28,192 nt of DNA, taken from positions 1 through 28,192 of the IMG/VR virus record IMGVR_UViG_3300045051_001126; one strand, given 5' to 3'. The DNA is from a virus. Of the stretch, positions 13,539-25,530 are shown in pieces. The position numbers and the translations under genes are program-made. The notes beneath the pieces are model-generated. The model did no database searches. It saw only the letters and a program-made list of their open reading frames with translations, and was not told where the DNA came from. How positions within the stretch are numbered: the stretch's first letter is position 1; each line of letters begins with the position of its first letter.

Positions 13539-13554
13539 TTCCCACGCGTGGGAA
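13539..13554. promoter_or_regulatory. Perfect 16-bp palindrome in the capsid-to-adaptor gap
   Basis: TTCCCACGCGTGGGAA equals its own reverse complement. It lies in the only gap of more than 100 bases within the late operon, upstream of the gene starting at 13507. The downstream GGCGTGGGAAAGG (13555 onward) repeats one arm. It is the same length as the three early-region palindromes but has a different core. A protein-binding dyad or part of the RNA structure of this gap is possible. Confidence 0.5.
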
Positions 13555-16747: not shown

Positions 16748-17698
16748 TCATTCCTCTCCCACTTTATGCTTGATAACTGCGTTAGCGTCAAGACTCACCC
16801 CCAGCACCAGATGAACAGGCTGACCATTGTCATCTTGCAGCTCAAGGCAGATTCCGTGCACTGCCTCACGAATGCGAGCGACGAACTCTTTTTCCGAGCC
16901 AGCCTTTACCCGACCAGCCGCGTCAAGTACATAACCACGCCCGTCAGCTCGTTCCGCCACTGGCACAATCTCCAGCACCAGCCGCTTCACAGCATCCTTA
17001 GTGGCCTGACTGATATCGCCGGTTTCGCGCGCCGCTAAAGCCGGATTCTTTGTCGTCAGCTCATATCCTTTTGGCCCCTGTGACACCAGGCCTCTGTGGA
17101 CAAGTACCGCCAAGTCTGAGCGGAGATCCATTTCGGTACAGGGCGTACCGGAGTTCGCCACCCCCACCAACACATCCCGCCAGGAAGCTACCCCTCGCCG
17201 ATCCCTCAGCACCTTGATGATGGTCCAAGAAAGCTCCTGTTGTCCACGCCGAGCCTTGAGATATAGGTCCTGAAGACCAAGCTCGGCAAACATCGCGCGC
17301 TCGGCTGTCTCGGTCGTTGGTGGCAAATCTACCTTTTCGGAGTCTTCCAAGTAGGAAGCCTCCTGAATAGGTGATTCGCAGTCTGCTGTATCTACGGCAA
17401 CACCCTGGAATCGAATCACCCTACCCTTATCAACCCACATCCTGCCCTCAGGGTCGTCAACCCTGTGCCTATCCCCAATTCCCGTTAAAAGCCAATCACT
17501 TGTTACACCCAGTGCTACTGAGAGTCGCAACAGCGCCAATCCACCTGGAAACTGCTCACCTGAGGTGTATTGCTGAAGGGTCCTATACGACATGCCGGAC
17601 GATTCTGCAAACTCCTTCATCGACAGCCCAAGACGCTTAATTGACGTTCTTAGTCTCTCAGAAAACTCTCTTTTTAGGTCAATTTCCTCATTTTCCAT
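16748..17698 (-). CDS. Phage repressor with N-terminal HTH
   Basis: A 316-residue protein. Residues about 12-73 are a Cro/CI-type helix-turn-helix (RLRTSIKRLGLSMKEFAESS, then GMSYRTLQQYTSGEQFPGG and SVALGVTSDWLLTG). The remaining 240 residues have no LexA-type self-cleavage domain that I can recognise; they include a region that may be a second winged helix (DLAVLVHRGLVSQGPKGYEL). The gene is divergent from the early operon with 72 bases between, the position of repressor c in Mu-like phages. I prefer ATG 17698 to TTG 17713; neither has a clear ribosome-binding site, so low or leaderless translation is possible. Confidence 0.8.
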   Translation of the reverse strand: MENEEIDLKREFSERLRTSIKRLGLSMKEFAESSGMSYRTLQQYTSGEQFPGGLALLRLSVALGVTSDWLLTGIGDRHRVDDPEGRMWVDKGRVIRFQGVAVDTADCESPIQEASYLEDSEKVDLPPTTETAERAMFAELGLQDLYLKARRGQQELSWTIIKVLRDRRGVASWRDVLVGVANSGTPCTEMDLRSDLAVLVHRGLVSQGPKGYELTTKNPALAARETGDISQATKDAVKRLVLEIVPVAERADGRGYVLDAAGRVKAGSEKEFVARIREAVHGICLELQDDNGQPVHLVLGVSLDANAVIKHKVGEE

Positions 17699-17727
17699 TT
17701 GATAGACACCCAATCATGTGTAATTAT
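17699..17727 (+). promoter_or_regulatory. Early promoter with overlapping dyad
   Basis: TTGATA (17699-17704) and AATTAT (17722-17727) are 17 bases apart, five and four matches to the sigma-70 hexamers, directed at the early operon that starts at 17771. The spacer holds a short inverted repeat (ACAC, eight bases, GTGT), a candidate operator for the divergent repressor. On the other strand TTGACC near 17738 could belong to the repressor's own promoter, without a good -10. Confidence 0.5.
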
Positions 17728-17770
17728 CTAAGGCAGATGGTCAACTCTACTACATAAGCAGGCGGGTGCA

Positions 17771-18019
17771 ATGAAAATCGAACCAGGTTACCAACTCGCA
17801 AGAGCTGTAATCGCCGGATTTCGCCTACAAGGCACGACGATGAATCACTGGTGCAAGCAAAACGGCATTACACAACAGAACGCTAATCAGGCAATTCGTG
17901 GAAGTTGGAACGGTCCCAAGGCAAAACAACTACTTCTTGCAATTGTGCAGGCTTCTGGAGCCGGAAACCTCTTGAACGTTTCTGAACAGACGGGAAAAGG
18001 CGAGGTAGTTGAAACATGA
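17771..18019 (+). CDS. Early HTH protein, paralogue 1 (HTH module only)
   Basis: An 82-residue protein and the first early gene, in the position of ner in Mu. It is essentially a single helix-turn-helix module: LARAVIAGFRLQGTTMNHWC, then GITQQNANQAIRGSWNGPKA and IVQASGAGNLL. The same module recurs in the next two genes. It is similar in outline to the small gp16-type HTH proteins of the phage BcepMu group (an AGF/W-C helix, a QAIxG recognition helix, then GPxA), but I cannot prove membership. Its stop overlaps the next start as ATGA. The likely role is tuning of the lysis-lysogeny switch. Confidence 0.75.
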   Translation: MKIEPGYQLARAVIAGFRLQGTTMNHWCKQNGITQQNANQAIRGSWNGPKAKQLLLAIVQASGAGNLLNVSEQTGKGEVVET

Positions 18020-18345
18020 GACAGGCTTTTCGCGATGGCAGCCCTGAACAATTTTTGGCCGCTCTGCTGGCCTTGCCGGTATTCATCCAGACCGAGATGG
18101 AGGCCCGTCGACCAATAGAACCAGGTCCACGGCTGGCGGATGCGGTGATGGCCGGTTTTCGCCTACGCCGAACCAGTTTGTATAAGTGGTGTGCAAGCAG
18201 CGGCTTGCGCCAGCAAAACGCACACCAAATTCTGACAGGTCGCTGGACTGGGCCAACGGCAAAGCGACACCTCGAAGCCATGGTTGAGGCCTCAGGTGCG
18301 CGGGCCCTTTTGACACAGTCGAATGAGGAAGGAAGCAAGGAATGA
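18016..18345 (+). CDS. Early HTH protein, paralogue 2 (N-module plus HTH module)
   Basis: A 109-residue protein. Residues 10-25 (PEQFLAALLALPVFIQTE) form a short hydrophobic helix shared with the two following genes. Residues about 38-100 are the HTH module shared with the flanking paralogues: LADAVMAGFRLRRTSLYKWC, SGLRQQNAHQILTGRWTGPT, then AKRHLEAMVEASGARALL. Closest to paralogue 3, with which it shares GRWTGPTAKRHL exactly. ATGA overlaps on both sides imply coupled translation. The N-module may mediate pairing among the family members; this is inference. Confidence 0.75.
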   Translation: MRQAFRDGSPEQFLAALLALPVFIQTEMEARRPIEPGPRLADAVMAGFRLRRTSLYKWCASSGLRQQNAHQILTGRWTGPTAKRHLEAMVEASGARALLTQSNEEGSKE

Positions 18346-18680
18346 GACCACAACTGGGCAAATGTGAAGAGTTTCTGGCCGCCATTTTGGCTATGCCGAC
18401 GCTGTTGACTCAGATTGACTTTGATCACACAGGGCCCAGTAGAGTGGAAATTCTGCCCTCAAAGAAACTGGCGAATGCTGTAAAGGCTGGCTTTCGCCTT
18501 CGAAACACCAGTCTCTACAAATGGTGTGCGGAATCTGGCATTCGCCATCAGGGCGCCTCTCAGATTCTCTCTGGCAGATGGACTGGCCCAACAGCCAAAC
18601 GACACCTGCAAGCAATGATCGAGGCGTCTGGAGCTGCAGCGCTCATGGGTTCAGACGAAGCTGGAGGCGGTCAGAAATGA
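18342..18680 (+). CDS. Early HTH protein, paralogue 3 (N-module plus HTH module)
   Basis: A 112-residue protein with the same two-part plan as its upstream neighbour: CEEFLAAILAMPTLLTQ at residues 8-24, then LANAVKAGFRLRNTSLYKWC, SGIRHQGASQILSGRWTGPT and AKRHLQAMIEASGAAALM. The spacer between the modules differs in length and sequence from paralogue 2. Divergence among the copies is high enough that they are old duplicates, or were acquired separately, rather than recent ones. Coupled by ATGA at both ends. Confidence 0.75.
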   Translation: MRPQLGKCEEFLAAILAMPTLLTQIDFDHTGPSRVEILPSKKLANAVKAGFRLRNTSLYKWCAESGIRHQGASQILSGRWTGPTAKRHLQAMIEASGAAALMGSDEAGGGQK

Positions 18681-18994
18681 AGCCACCATCGGGATCAACA
18701 GAGGAGTTTTTGGCGGCATTGCTGGCCCTGCCAAACATAACCGCCTGGCGTATCGGCAAGACCCGGCAGGTGCTGCATGGTGGGCGACTACACTGGAAGT
18801 CTGACATTTACCAGATCCTGCACTGGCCTGCTGCGAGGTTTGAGCGGGTGCGCATTGCGGAGGTGCGCCAGGAGGCAGCTAGTTTGGTGGTCGTGGATGG
18901 AGACGGAAAGTGTTGGCTTGCACTGCGGATGACGGCGTGGGGACTGGCGGATTCGAGAAGAATTCTCCCCGGGGAGAAGGGGCTTATTGGTTGA
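18677..18994 (+). CDS. Early protein with the shared N-module but a different C-terminus
   Basis: A 105-residue protein. Residues 8-20 (TEEFLAALLALPNITAWR) match the N-module of paralogues 2 and 3. The HTH module is absent; instead there is a basic segment (GKTRQVLHGGRLHWKSD) and a beta-looking stretch (ARFERVRIAEVRQEAASLVV). The start is the ATG overlapping the stop of paralogue 3; an in-frame extension upstream lies inside that gene. No known family. The C-terminal tail (ILPGEKGLIG) is encoded by the first of the three palindromes that follow. Confidence 0.65.
   Translation: MKPPSGSTEEFLAALLALPNITAWRIGKTRQVLHGGRLHWKSDIYQILHWPAARFERVRIAEVRQEAASLVVVDGDGKCWLALRMTAWGLADSRRILPGEKGLIG
18963..18978. 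promoter_or_regulatory. Palindrome 1, TTCTCCCCGGGGAGAA
   Basis: A perfect 16-bp palindrome with the core TCCCCGGGGA and flanks TTC/GAA. It overlaps the last codons of the gene ending at 18994. Symmetry stops exactly at 16 bp. It is the first of three such sites in 112 bp and a candidate operator for an early regulator. Confidence 0.7.
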
Positions 18995-19002
18995 CATATT
19001 CC

Positions 19003-19018
19003 GCGTCCCCGGGGACGC
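19003..19018. promoter_or_regulatory. Palindrome 2, GCGTCCCCGGGGACGC
   Basis: A perfect 16-bp palindrome with the same core TCCCCGGGGA and flanks GCG/CGC, centred 40 bp from the first. A consensus -35 hexamer TTGACA (18991-18996) lies between the two, but no -10 is seen at proper spacing, so a promoter is not claimed. Confidence 0.7.
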
Positions 19019-19058
19019 CTACTGAGAACAGCGGGGCAAACCGGAGTGACCGGAAGCA

Positions 19059-19074
19059 TTTTCCCCGGGGAAAA
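19059..19074. promoter_or_regulatory. Palindrome 3, TTTTCCCCGGGGAAAA
   Basis: A perfect 16-bp palindrome with the same core and flanks TTT/AAA, centred 56 bp from the second and 61 bp before the start codon of the next gene. As RNA it could fold only as a short hairpin with a tight loop, so a DNA-binding dyad seems likelier. The 140-base gap 18995-19134 holds palindromes 2 and 3 and no gene. Confidence 0.7.
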
Positions 19075-19134: not shown

Positions 19135-19317
19135 ATGGACGTGAGACCGGGCACCAGGGTCACCTGGGGCGAGCTGATTATGCGTGACGGAAAGGCGGTG
19201 GTCATCAACCGCCTGGGCACTGTGGAGAGCGTGCTTGGCCATTACTGCCGGGTGCGCCAGGATCACAACTCACGCGTGCCGGAGCTTCCGGTGCGGATTT
19301 TGAGGAGGGTGGGATGA
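19135..19317 (+). CDS. Small early hypothetical protein
   Basis: A 60-residue protein after the palindrome block. The ribosome-binding site AGTGGAGG lies about seven bases before the ATG, followed by MDVRPGTRVTWGELIMRDGK and SVLGHYCRVRQDHNSR. It looks like a small beta barrel. The PGxxVxW motif at its start recurs as PGAIVSW in the C-terminal domain of the double-Ner protein two genes on, so both may carry the same small domain. No function known. Its stop overlaps the next start (ATGA). Confidence 0.65.
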   Translation: MDVRPGTRVTWGELIMRDGKAVVINRLGTVESVLGHYCRVRQDHNSRVPELPVRILRRVG

Positions 19318-19784
19318 AGAAGCTGACGATCTACCTGGCGAGTAGCTGGAAAAACCAGCGGTATCCCGAGGTATTGCAGGCACTGCGAGCCGCGGGCCAT
19401 GACGTCTACGACTTCCGGCACCAGGGCTTTTCGTGGTCTTCCGTGGATCCCGGCTGGCGCCAGTGGAGCCCGGCTCAGTTTTGCGATGCGCTGAAAACAG
19501 ACACAGCCAAGAAGGGCTTTGCCACCGACATGAATGCCCTGATCGAGGCCGACGTAGTGGTCCTGCTCATGCCATGCGGGCGGTCTGCTCATCTGGAGCT
19601 GGGGTTTGCCTGCGGTGCTGGGAAGGTAGCGCTGGTGTTGCAGGAGGAACCAGCGGAGGCCGAGCTGATGTATGGGATGACTGATGGGATCTGTACTTCG
19701 TTGGCTGATCTGCTCCTTGTTTTGGGCCTGACTGATGTCGCCAATAGCAATTTTGACAAGGAGGATATGTCATGCGAAGGTTGA
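19314..19784 (+). CDS. Nucleoside 2-deoxyribosyltransferase-like protein
   Basis: A 156-residue protein. The N-terminus MKKLTIYLASSWKNQRYPEV fits the family's first strand and loop; next come AAGHDVYDFRHQ, KGFATDMNALIEADVVVLLM and the signature PCGRSAHLELGFACGAGK, ending with EAELMYGMTDGI. Enzymes of this fold break or transfer the bond between base and deoxyribose, or remove bases from nucleotides. Phage members are usually annotated from sequence alone. In an early operon it may alter the nucleotide pool or counter a nucleotide-based host defence; this is speculation. It overlaps the following start by 13 bases. Confidence 0.75.
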   Translation: MKKLTIYLASSWKNQRYPEVLQALRAAGHDVYDFRHQGFSWSSVDPGWRQWSPAQFCDALKTDTAKKGFATDMNALIEADVVVLLMPCGRSAHLELGFACGAGKVALVLQEEPAEAELMYGMTDGICTSLADLLLVLGLTDVANSNFDKEDMSCEG

Positions 19785-20431
19785 AAGTAGCCCCCACGCC
19801 GCTGCCACCCCCCAACTGTACCACCCAGATGCTGCGCTCCTGGGTGCGGGCAACACTGGCGGAACGCAACAGCTCGCTGGAGCACATCGCGGATCAGCTC
19901 GGTGTGAAGCTCAGCTCTCTGTGTGGAGCCTTCAACAACGGCTGCCCTCGATATCAGCGGGCCATAGCCGATGCCTGCGGCGTCTCACCCGACGCTCTCT
20001 GGCCACAGAATCACGCCACCACCCCACCGGGTACGCCGATTGATGAAGCCGCCCGATTGGCACCTATACCCACCCACCCCCTTGGTCGTGAGCACTGGAT
20101 TCGCTATCAGCTTGCCATGCGGCTTGTCACGGTGGCCAGCCTGGCAAAGAAGCTGGGGATCAGCCCGGAAGCAGCGCAGACCGCCTTTCGTCGTTCCTAC
20201 CCACGGGTGGAAGCGGTCATTGCCGAGGCCATCGGCATGAACCCCTCGGAACTCTGGCCCGAGCGCTACCAGCCAAACGACCAGTGGCAGCCGGGCGCCA
20301 TTGTCAGCTGGGAAGAAGGTACCCGGCGACTGACGGGCACGATTGCGAAGCGTGAGCGCAACGAGCTGACGGTGCGCAGCGCGGACGCCACCTACTACCT
20401 CACCACCCGTGATGTGCTGGAGGTGCGATGA
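19772..20431 (+). CDS. Regulator with two Ner-like HTH domains
   Basis: A 219-residue protein. Residues about 22-82 (LRSWVRATLAERNSSLEHIA, then GCPRYQRAIADACGVSPDAL and WPQ) and about 105-168 (RYQLAMRLVTVASLAKKLGI, then SYPRVEAVIAEAIGMNPSEL and WPERY) each follow the Ner/Nlp pattern: HTH, proline, a helix with IAxAxGxxPxxLWP. Mu Ner is a single such domain that shuts down early transcription and c. Here two copies are fused and followed by a beta-looking C-terminal domain (QPGAIVSWEEGTRRLTGT). ATG 19772 has AAGGAGG well placed. I infer a DNA-binding negative regulator that could bind two half-sites as one chain. Confidence 0.8.
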   Translation: MRRLKVAPTPLPPPNCTTQMLRSWVRATLAERNSSLEHIADQLGVKLSSLCGAFNNGCPRYQRAIADACGVSPDALWPQNHATTPPGTPIDEAARLAPIPTHPLGREHWIRYQLAMRLVTVASLAKKLGISPEAAQTAFRRSYPRVEAVIAEAIGMNPSELWPERYQPNDQWQPGAIVSWEEGTRRLTGTIAKRERNELTVRSADATYYLTTRDVLEVR

Positions 20432-22347: not shown

Positions 22348-22381
22348 ACCCCTTTAACCCCCTGTTCTATTGGAGAGATCA

Positions 22382-23755
22382 ATGGATCCCGTTGAAAACA
22401 GTCTGATGGAGTTTGTGAGAGATGCCCGCATTCCGGTGAGCCTCTCGGAAATCCAGGATCACTTCCGCGCCCGGAGGGTTCGCACCAGCCGGACCAATAC
22501 GCTGGAGCTGCTGGAGAACCTGGTACAGGATGGCGCGCTGGTGGTGCAGGGCACCATCGGCTCTGACTCGGAGCTGTACAGCCTGCCCGCTCCCACCCCC
22601 ATGCAGGTGCCCGAATGGCAGGAGCCTGCCTCAGAAGAGGCTTCCCCTCGCACCATGGCGGACTTCATTGAGGAAGCGCCCGCCGCCACACCATCCGCCC
22701 CCCTGCCCACCACCGATGTGTTCGACATGGTGCCGACGGGCGAGCAGATCCTGCTTCCGGAGCTTCCAGAGGAGGCGCTGCCCCTTGAAGAGGCTTTCAA
22801 GGCTGTCAACCAGGTGGGCGCAATTGCCAACGAGCTGGGCATCGAGCTGCCTGAGTTCAACATGGCCAACACCCACGTGCTGATCCGTCAGTCCGTCCAA
22901 CGCAGCTTCCAGGAGTGGCTGCGCACGGGCGCGCTGCTCTACCAGGCCCGCCTCTACACTTCCAGGGCAGAATTCGCCGAGTGGGTGGCGCGCTGCGGCA
23001 TCCCCATGTCGGAGCGATCTATTCAAAAGGCCATCTCTGGATTCCGCGCCATTCAGGAGATTCCCGAGTGTCGCAAGCTGGCCTCCGGAATGAGCAGCAT
23101 CAAAAAGTTCCAGGTGGTGCAGCGTGTGCTGACCGTACCCGGGGCGCTCGAAGTCTACCGCAGCACCGGCAAGATTCTCGACATGACCCCTGCCGAGCTG
23201 GATTCAGCTTCCAAGACCACACTCGAGGCCCTCGAAAAGGAGATGCGGCGCAAGGGCGAGGAGGCCTCCGCCAAGATTGCTGCCCTCGAAACGGCGGTGG
23301 CCGCCAAGGATGAGGAGCTGGGCAAGGTCCATCGGGAGCTGTCTCTGCGGACCAATCCGGAGCTGTCGGAAGCAGCCCTCAGCAAGGCCTTTCTCGCCGA
23401 GATCGGTCAGCTCATTGATGCCGCCTACCCACGCCTCGCCCAGCTGCAGGTCGGACGTCGAACCGACCTGAACTCACTCCAGCCCACTGCCATCAGCCGC
23501 GGATACGTGGCCCTGATCGGTCTGTCCAAGACTCTGAGTCTGGTGCTTCGCGAGTTTGAGGCCCGCTGGGGCAAGCAGGTCCCCGAGCTGCTGCTGGACG
23601 AGGACGGTCAGATGCGCATGCCCGTCACTCGCCAGGAGCTGCGCATTCTGGCGCGTGACGCGCAGGAGGCGGACATTGGCGGGCAGGCGGCGCTCAAGGG
23701 CCAGCAGGTGCTGGTGTTCCGCCGGGATGAACAGGTCGCAGAGATCGCTGACTGA
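22382..23755 (+). CDS. Early DNA-binding-like protein with winged helix and coiled coil
   Basis: A 457-residue protein. Residues 1-65 look like a winged helix (SLSEIQDHFRARRVRTSRTN, then LELLENLVQDGALVVQGT). A Pro/Glu-rich linker follows to about 115. The middle (SFQEWLRTGALLYQARLYTS, RAEFAEWVARCGIPMSERSI, then QKAISGFRAIQEI) recalls DUF3102-type phage/plasmid proteins, which contain an HTH. Next come a strong coiled coil (TTLEALEKEMRRKGEEASAK and onward) and a C-terminal helical domain. It is the gene immediately before the transposase. I suggest a DNA-binding accessory protein; ParB-like and enhancer-binding roles are both conceivable. The start is ATG 22382 with GGAGAG upstream, preferred to the TTG at 22370. 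Confidence 0.65.
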   Translation: MDPVENSLMEFVRDARIPVSLSEIQDHFRARRVRTSRTNTLELLENLVQDGALVVQGTIGSDSELYSLPAPTPMQVPEWQEPASEEASPRTMADFIEEAPAATPSAPLPTTDVFDMVPTGEQILLPELPEEALPLEEAFKAVNQVGAIANELGIELPEFNMANTHVLIRQSVQRSFQEWLRTGALLYQARLYTSRAEFAEWVARCGIPMSERSIQKAISGFRAIQEIPECRKLASGMSSIKKFQVVQRVLTVPGALEVYRSTGKILDMTPAELDSASKTTLEALEKEMRRKGEEASAKIAALETAVAAKDEELGKVHRELSLRTNPELSEAALSKAFLAEIGQLIDAAYPRLAQLQVGRRTDLNSLQPTAISRGYVALIGLSKTLSLVLREFEARWGKQVPELLLDEDGQMRMPVTRQELRILARDAQEADIGGQAALKGQQVLVFRRDEQVAEIAD

Positions 23756-23775: not shown

Positions 23776-25530
23776 ATGGCTCGAGGATTGATGTTGAACC
23801 CTGAAGTGCTGGTCGCTGCTCGCCAACGGGTGCAGGCGTCGGGATGGGGTGAACGCAGCAGGGTGGTGAATGAGCTGGCAGGATGCTGGGGCATCTCAGT
23901 CTCTCAGGTATGGCGCATTCTGGATTTGGACACGGGCCGCAAACGGAGGTCGGACCAGGGGGAGACCATCCTGACAGATGCTGATCTGCAGAAGATGGCC
24001 GCCTACCTGGTCCGCTCCATGCGGGATTCCGGCGTATGCCTGGGCAGTGTGAAGCGTGGGAAGGAGATTCTGCTGCGCAGCGGAGAGATCTCCCTCGCGT
24101 CCGCTCAGGCCAGTGACGCCACCTGGAATCGCCAGCTGCGAAAGCATGGGCTGGCCAAGGAGTTTTTGGCAGCGCCGTCGCTGGCCACTGAGGTGGCCAC
24201 CCGCTTTCCCAACGACTGGCACATGGTGGATGCGTCGATCGCCATCCTCTTTTACCTCACCCCCAAGGGGAAGATGGAGTTTGAGCGGTTCGATTTGGCC
24301 GACCCCAAAAACAAGCCGCAGGAGTGGGCAAAGAAGGTGCGCTCCCGCCTGCTGCTGGTGCGCTGGGTGCTGGTGGACTGTTATTCCGGCGCGGTGGTGG
24401 TCGATTACCGGGAGGCCAGCGGCGAAAACACCCGGGATTTGCTCGACTTCCTGCACTACGCCTGGAGCCCCAAGAACGACCGGCGCTGGCCCTTTCATGG
24501 GATCCCGTTCAATCTGGGAGCCGATCAGGGCGCTCCGCAGAAATCGTCCTACGTCGATAGCCTGGCCAGTGTGCTGGGCTTCAGTCTGCACCTGCACCGG
24601 TCCAGTCACGAGCGCAAGGACGCCCCAGCGGCTCGAGCATCGGGTGACGTCGAGACCATCATGCGGGTGTGGGAAGAGAATTTTGAGAGTCGCTGGCGGC
24701 TCAATCCGCCCACTGGCGGTCTGGCTCAGGTGCGCGATCAAGCTCGAGACTTCTGCATCGCCCTGAACAGCAGTGAGCAGTATAGGCTCAGAAGTACTGA
24801 TTTCACCCGATCTCAGCTCTGGCTGGACATCCGGGAAGAGCACATCCGTCTCCCCCCACCCCTTCATCAGTTTCGGGAACTGGCGATCTCGAGCCCTTTC
24901 AGCCGGGTACTGGACGCTTACGGACGGGTACGCATCGACGGCGACTTCTACAAGATTCCCAGCTGCCCCTGGTATCCAGGGGAGGAGCTGCAGGTGCGCC
25001 GGAACGCCTGGGAGCCGGAGAAAGTCGAGGTGGTCAACCCCCGCACGGGGGAGATGCTTGACGCGTTCAAGCTGGAGATCACCCGCACTGGGAAAACCTC
25101 CGCTGCGGTGTACCGGGGAGAGAAGGAGGAGGCCGACAAGCCGGTCTCAGGTCGCCAGCCCAAACACACAGCGGCTCGTCTGCGGGAGACGGTGGATGCT
25201 GAGGTGAAAGCCAAGAGCGGACTGTGGGAGCCGGGCAAGCTGGACACTGGCCTTGGCACCCATGCCGAAACGGTCAAGGTGGAGTTCGCACCACGGACGG
25301 GAACGCTGGTGCTGCCTGCGGTGAGTGGTCGCCGGATCGATTTGTGGGATGCCTTTGCGCTGGCCAGCCAGCGGCTCGGCCGTGAGCTGAACAAGGCCGA
25401 CACCGACTTTCTGGAAGCGCGGCTGACAGCACGGCGGTTTGACGAGCTGGAGGCCCTCCGGGTGATTGAGGAGCTGGCGGCTCAGCAGGGACAAGGCCGG
25501 AAGCTGCTCACGCTGGGAGGTGGCCGATGA
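23776..25530 (+). CDS. A: DDE transposase of the phage (MuA-type role)
   Basis: A 584-residue transposase/integrase-core protein that would cut and join phage ends for integration and replicative transposition. Residues about 25-50 hold an HTH (RVVNELAGCWGISVSQVWRI). In the catalytic core I assign Asp152 (DWHMVDAS), Asp250 (FNLGADQG) and Glu293 (ASGDVETIMR); the last two are 43 residues apart, as in this superfamily. Past residue 385 a Mu-type beta-barrel follows (YGRVRIDGDFYKIPSCPWYP, then EELQVRRN), then a basic linker and a helical tail, where MuA contacts MuB. It is shorter than MuA (663), mainly at the N-terminal end-binding part. AAGGAGG lies upstream of the ATG; the stop overlaps the next gene as ATGA. 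Confidence 0.9.
   Translation: MARGLMLNPEVLVAARQRVQASGWGERSRVVNELAGCWGISVSQVWRILDLDTGRKRRSDQGETILTDADLQKMAAYLVRSMRDSGVCLGSVKRGKEILLRSGEISLASAQASDATWNRQLRKHGLAKEFLAAPSLATEVATRFPNDWHMVDASIAILFYLTPKGKMEFERFDLADPKNKPQEWAKKVRSRLLLVRWVLVDCYSGAVVVDYREASGENTRDLLDFLHYAWSPKNDRRWPFHGIPFNLGADQGAPQKSSYVDSLASVLGFSLHLHRSSHERKDAPAARASGDVETIMRVWEENFESRWRLNPPTGGLAQVRDQARDFCIALNSSEQYRLRSTDFTRSQLWLDIREEHIRLPPPLHQFRELAISSPFSRVLDAYGRVRIDGDFYKIPSCPWYPGEELQVRRNAWEPEKVEVVNPRTGEMLDAFKLEITRTGKTSAAVYRGEKEEADKPVSGRQPKHTAARLRETVDAEVKAKSGLWEPGKLDTGLGTHAETVKVEFAPRTGTLVLPAVSGRRIDLWDAFALASQRLGRELNKADTDFLEARLTARRFDELEALRVIEELAAQQGQGRKLLTLGGGR

Follow-up and report, generated by a model that had tools for sequence, protein, structure and literature searches.

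Three perfect 16-bp palindromes, all built on the core TCCCCGGGGA with a central CG, lie within a 112-bp stretch of the early operon of a Mu/B3-like transposable phage. The arms of these palindromes co-vary, and co-varying perfect palindromes are a recurrent feature of the B3-like phage group. We tentatively interpret the triplet as parS- or operator-like sites of a homodimeric DNA-binding protein, for which the DUF3102-like protein of the phage would be the leading candidate; we consider this reading plausible. The window referred to throughout is the whole stretch of DNA that was analysed, an IMG/VR virus record of 28,192 bases with a G+C content of 60.5%.

Three co-varying palindromes and their genomic setting

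The outer triplets of the palindromes (TTC, GCG and TTT) vary from site to site, and all nine outer pairs remain complementary (P ~2.4e-6 under the local composition). The initial annotation had described three 16-bp palindromes with a constant core and variable, self-complementary flanks, and the sequences are exactly as it gave them (Table 1). It had also proposed a search for the core elsewhere in the genome; the record contains three exact copies of TCCCCGGGGA, all of them at the palindromes. As a null model, 60 order-2 Markov simulations of the window were generated. Per simulated window there were on average 0.67 perfect 16-bp palindromes, never more than 2, and the core occurred 0.017 times; none of the 60 contained two 16-bp palindromes sharing one core. 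When counted pair by pair, 24 of 24 cells are paired and three of the eight pairs have changed on both sides. This pair count was equalled in 7 of 500 shuffles, and it collapses once the register is slid.

The simulated mean agrees with the earlier estimate that a single 16-bp palindrome is expected less than once in a window of this size. The window nevertheless contains a fourth perfect 16-bp palindrome, TTCCCACGCGTGGGAA, at 13539-13554 in the structural-gene region and unrelated to the other three, so that a lone palindrome of this length is not rare here. That symmetry stops at exactly 16 bp, previously regarded as notable, proved unremarkable, as the chance that all three sites mismatch at the following pair is ~0.4. 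Sites 1 and 3 differ at a single pair and have flanking sequence in common, with 20 of 23 bases identical; they are thus in part copies of each other. The real contrast is that between site 2 and sites 1 and 3.

Table 1 Features of the early region and the three palindromes (positions in the window).
Feature	Position	Strand	Basis and remarks
CI-like repressor (HTH_3)	16748-17713	-	domain match; divergent from the early operon
Three consecutive HTH paralogues, phrog_15281	17771-18019, 18016-18345, 18342-18680	+	family matches
105-aa ORF overlapping palindrome 1	18677-18994	+	no family match; start overlaps the preceding stop (ATGA)
Palindrome 1, TTCTCCCCGGGGAGAA	18963-18978		sequence; inside the last codons of ORF 18677-18994
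Palindrome 2, GCGTCCCCGGGGACGC	19003-19018		sequence
Palindrome 3, TTTTCCCCGGGGAAAA	19059-19074		sequence
60-aa ORF	19135-19317	+	3' of the palindromes
Nucleoside deoxyribosyltransferase-like gene, phrog_12607	19314-19784	+	early operon
Double Ner-like protein, two HTH_35 domains	19772-20431	+	domain matches
DUF3102-like protein	22370-23755	+	predicted ParB/Noc-type DNA-binding domain at residues ~165-285, long coiled coil
DDE transposase, outlier of the B3-like group	23776-25530	+	sequence comparison

The initial annotation placed the sites in the gap between the HTH paralogues and the Ner-like region. This holds for palindromes 2 and 3, while palindrome 1 is located inside an ORF. The stretch 17771-18994 comprises the three HTH paralogues followed by this ORF, which has no HTH; the N-terminal motif EEFLAALLALP is common to the ORF and the two paralogues before it, that is, to the last three ORFs of the series. 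Further downstream, two to three genes without assigned function separate the double-Ner gene from the DUF3102-like gene, and AAA proteins are encoded alongside the transposase. The nucleoside deoxyribosyltransferase-like gene is closest to genes of mycobacteriophages and of Rhizobium phage RR1-B, and possibly has a role in nucleotide or DNA modification.

HTH genes adjoin the palindromes, and the HTH regulators of the phage are the main rival to the DUF3102-like protein as ligand. The triplet would then consist of operators for the CI-like repressor, for one or more of the HTH paralogues or for the double Ner protein, at a secondary early promoter before 19135. Three paralogues stand beside three sites with different flanks, and operator-like palindromes are present at the repressor/ner junction of relatives, both of which suit such a scheme. 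However, a search for a sigma-70-like promoter or a credible terminator at the palindromes found neither, and terminator-like matches there stay at chance level. Equal half-sites would not be read by the double Ner protein, whose HTH units are unlike each other. For the repressor, binding would be expected near 17714-17770, in the divergent region, which lacks the core. The repressor, the HTH paralogues and the double Ner protein had been named as ligands in the initial annotation, which did not include the DUF3102-like protein among its candidates; no specific evidence emerged for any of them, and we consider this explanation somewhat unlikely.

Protein-bound dyads, RNA structure and the parS comparison

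The symmetry of each palindrome is continuous through the dyad centre and leaves no loop. In a hypothetical hairpin the loop would be CCGG, which is invariant across the three sites, and the single RNA hairpins are weak (-6.1, -9.1 and -3.4 kcal/mol). The missing loop, the invariant centre and the weak hairpins together favour a protein-bound DNA dyad over an RNA hairpin. The initial annotation had argued that the symmetry itself is selected, either in a protein-binding dyad or in hairpin or cruciform formation. Symmetry does seem to be maintained, and the protein dyad fits best, with its loop-free, invariant centre and a 16-bp architecture like that of ParB centromeres; the hairpin option fares less well.

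A structural role could take the form of cruciforms, of separate RNA hairpins or of one long RNA hairpin formed by sites 1 and 3, with site 2 enclosed between them. The arms co-vary, as such a role would have it. On both strands, the predicted fold of the region is better than that of shuffled sequence (z ~ -3.4), and in it site 1 pairs with site 3. The folding score is, however, a trivial consequence of repeated self-complementary sequence, and the would-be loop is the most conserved part of the sites. The T-run of TTTTCCCCGGGGAAAA lies on the side opposite to that required in a terminator, so that no stem-loop with a U-tract in terminator sense is formed, and an Rfam search of the palindrome region gave no match. 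We regard a structural role as distinctly unlikely.

Among known protein-bound dyads, the published parS and Noc-binding sites are likewise palindromes of 16 bp, with a central CG in parS and in the related Bsr sites of the Burkholderiales (PMC5450999, PMC7383237). A repeated ~16-bp palindrome with a central CG is present in the window as well. The chromosomal parS, the Noc-binding site and the Bsr parS of the Burkholderiales resemble the phage sites as perfect 16-bp palindromes, and they are read by a dimeric protein of the ParB family. In contrast to phage site 2, which starts with GCG, these sites have T-rich arms with a GTTT- or ATTT-type 5' end. As a rule, ParB accepts substitutions at no pair but the outermost (PMC5450999), and in the Burkholderiales centromeres too it is mainly this pair that may change (PMC5450999, PMC7383237).

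The core of the phage sites recurs in bacteria. Public genomes were scanned for two TCCCCGGGGA cores 25-55 bases apart, which returned at least 100 stretches. At least 37 genomic loci contain two or more perfect 16-bp palindromes of this core, and in at least 18 loci the sites lie downstream of a gene for a SopB-type ParB, the nearest of them 4-80 bp from its end. Among the matches listed, nearly all palindromes in Sphingomonadales and allied bacteria read GTTTCCCCGGGGAAAC. In three loci, the neighbour inspected at the far side of the sites proved to encode a RepA-type initiator. The outer GTT of these plasmid sites is constant within a locus, and their flanks beyond 16 bp show little symmetry. 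The GTTTCCCCGGGGAAAC arrays are evidently plasmid ParB (parS) centromeres. Arrays directly 3' of a SopB-type parB were seen on alphaproteobacterial plasmids in L024, L053, L063, L075, L096, L130 and others.

The arrays of the plasmid SopB-type ParB (Pfam PF18090) from Sphingomonadales, Haematobacter and Asaia have the 10-bp core, the perfect 16-bp dyad and the spacing of tens of base pairs in common with the phage. They differ from it in the outer triplet, which is constantly GTT in the plasmids and TTC, GCG or TTT in the phage, so that the copies in the phage array are not near-identical. They also differ in their position directly 3' of parB and beside repA, whereas no cognate parB or parA stands beside the phage sites. 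A search of the window for a SopB-type ParB found none (best E 0.06), and the early genes scanned gave no ParB or ParA Pfam match. Owing to the lack of parAB beside the array and to the variable flanks, the phage array appears to be parS-like in architecture without being a member of the GTTTCCCCGGGGAAAC centromere family.

The shared core raises the alternative of a parS-like mimic for a host or plasmid ParB, or of a dispersed repeat derived from the host. SGI1 offers a precedent, as it carries parS-like sites bound by the ParB of IncC (PMC10954446) and is likewise a mobile element with parS-like dyads and no parAB. SGI1 is, however, an integrative mobilizable element for which binding has been demonstrated. 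Dispersed palindromes of this core do occur in some genomes (Janibacter, Massilia); with respect to such REP/HIP-like host palindromes, the phage record contains three core copies. The phage flanks differ both from the GTT of the centromeres and among the three sites, and neither ParA nor a SopB-type ParB is encoded in the window. This origin is unlikely.

In the bacterial genomes, dispersed TCCCCGGGGA palindromes were observed in Janibacter anophelis (L036, L071, L123, L126; 89 core copies in the genome) and in Massilia polaris (L064, L089; 57 copies). In Janibacter the flanking pair is also symmetrically variable (ATC/GAT and ATT/AAT).

Palindromes in B3-like relatives

The phage is an outlier, and the searches for its relatives returned distant matches and no close one. 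Known phages reach ~30% identity in the transposase and up to 47% in the capsid, and the best IMG/VR loci reach 33% in the transposase and 56% in the major capsid protein. Only distant transposases were found in 369 gammaproteobacterial genomes (best 33%) and 385 alphaproteobacterial genomes. Single-protein IMG/VR searches with the transposase, the double Ner protein and the major capsid protein found no relatives. IMG/VR alignment searches covering 11 loci for the HTH paralogues, 80 for the capsid and 80 for the transposase revealed no TCCCCGGGGA array, and the array is likewise absent from the matches in known phages and in the gammaproteobacterial genomes; one capsid relative (L232) has a single copy of the core with flanks that are not symmetric. 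A scan of IMG/VR for paired cores yielded 18 contigs, and in none of them was a relative of the phage recognised. A DNA similarity search of phages and plasmids gave nothing relevant, and a literature search for the palindrome sequence gave unrelated matches only. The relatives without a TCCCCGGGGA array are too distant for its absence to support or refute a function.

Long perfect palindromes are strongly enriched in the early regions of the relatives. Of 59 non-redundant transposable-phage loci, 20 have one that is 20 bp or longer in the 5 kb upstream of their transposase, whereas 0.33 would be expected, and none of the 59 has one downstream of it. Most of these long palindromes belong to one family, CAAATGCGnCGAC/GTCGnCGCATTTG, with 50 occurrences in 41 loci, positioned within the DUF3102-like gene, just 5' of it or kilobases off. 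IMG/VR was then scanned with CAAATGNNNCGACGTCGNNNCATTTG, in which N is free and symmetry is thus not selected. Of 68 distinct sites, 54 (79%) are symmetric at all three free positions, compared with 6% expected if the columns were independent. A DUF3102-like gene or a transposase is present in 62 of the 76 stretches, and in L283 two copies of the palindrome differ by a paired change. The enrichment, the symmetry at free positions and the paired change establish co-varying palindromes as recurrent in the group. As far as we found, the CAAATGCGnCGAC/GTCGnCGCATTTG family of 24-30-bp perfect palindromes is undescribed; examples are at 11564 in L146, 10880 in L155, 9442 in L275, 5287, 5599 and 9388 in L283, 8019 and 8094 in L292, and 9107 and 19363 in L298.

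These palindromes resemble the 16-bp triplet in their perfect symmetry, their co-varying arms, their early-region location and their occurrence in the same phage group, and sometimes, as in L283 and L292, in the presence of several copies. They differ in their length of 24-30 bp, in the constant outer CAAA/TTTG and in lying usually in or near the DUF3102-like gene, and they have no sequence in common with the triplet. The window itself contains no 26-bp palindrome with at least 11 of 13 pairs and no CAAA/TTTG family member. Among the 38 non-redundant loci without a 26-bp site, it alone has a tight array of palindromes with a common core.

Template switching can copy one palindrome arm onto the other. 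The triplet could accordingly be a neutral product of such quasipalindrome correction on a repeated core, with no current function, and the sequence surrounding sites 1 and 3 is shared as this would predict. Three events on one core within 112 bp would be needed, however, and no other such array occurs in the window or in those 38 family loci. A neutral origin is very unlikely.

Other perfect palindromes, of 18-24 bp, are located at the repressor/ner junction in L274, L286, L290, L291 and L307, and are probably repressor or Ner operators.

The DUF3102-like protein as candidate reader

Immediately upstream of the transposase, nearly all of these phages encode a protein that has a DUF3102 domain (PF11300; phrog_1748) and, after it, a long predicted coiled coil. 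The protein at 22370-23755 belongs to this family, as a family profile from which it had been left out matches it with E 4e-6; it is a divergent member, with ~19% identity to the family. A ParB-like helix-turn-helix had been proposed from the sequence ahead of modelling. The model of the DUF3102 domain has a pLDDT of 92.9. In a VIA comparison with solved structures, the DNA-binding domains of Noc, ParB, Spo0J and KorB accounted for 12 of the 14 best rows. The best match has Z 6.9 over 92 residues with an rmsd of 2.8, although a Z below 8 in an all-helical domain may reflect a common helix arrangement. Several of the matches are complexes with palindromic DNA, and SopB, P1 ParB and VirB follow further down. 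A Foldseek search with the domain model gave E 0.5 or worse. With the full-length window protein, the coiled coil dominated the AlphaFold model, so that fold comparison brought no useful match. On moderate evidence, the modelling suggests that the DUF3102 domain may have a ParB/Noc/KorB-type DNA-binding fold. Profile comparison by hhalign of DUF3102 with SopB-type or chromosomal ParB was not significant (probability ~1%), and sequence profiles thus gave no support for a ParB identity. A literature search on DUF3102 returned incidental mentions only.

KorB offers a further parallel, since its operators are palindromic sites of a ParB-fold repressor and the structure of KorB bound to its operator (1r71) appears in the list of fold matches for the DUF3102 domain; the window, by contrast, encodes no sequence relative of KorB.

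We postulate that a dimer would recognise TCCCCGGGGA, the constant 10-bp core, and would accept changes in the three outer pairs provided that the two half-sites remain identical. The reader would most likely be the phage's own DUF3102-like protein, encoded directly 5' of the transposase and presumably dimerised by its long coiled coil. In other phages of the group, the same role would fall to the perfect 24-30-bp palindrome that lies in or near the DUF3102-like gene. Binding could result in KorB-like autoregulation of the early operon or in ParB/Noc-like nucleation of a protein-DNA complex on phage DNA. Several points stand against this reading: the flanks of the triplet differ while plasmid ParB arrays keep GTT, the profile and Foldseek comparisons of the domain are not significant or poor, the window protein diverges strongly from its family, and the link between the triplet and the 26-bp family consists of symmetry and region, not of sequence.

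For the group as a whole, it is possible, though we would not count on it, that B3-like phages encode a ParB/Noc-fold DUF3102 protein together with fast-diverging but invariably perfectly symmetric sites, which are of the 26-bp CAAATGCG type in many of them and the TCCCCGGGGA triplet here. This would constitute an undescribed centromere- or KorB-like pair serving transposition, early regulation or DNA organisation. If so, DUF3102 (phrog_1748), which has no assigned function, would become a ParB-like DNA-binding protein with candidate sites, and its role in replicative transposition or in lysogeny control would be directly testable. The pair would also provide a natural system in which to follow how protein and palindrome shift specificity jointly, a question already addressed for ParB and Noc. 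Besides the window protein, a DUF3102 domain with a predicted ParB/Noc/KorB-type DNA-binding fold was observed in L316 (9087-10007).
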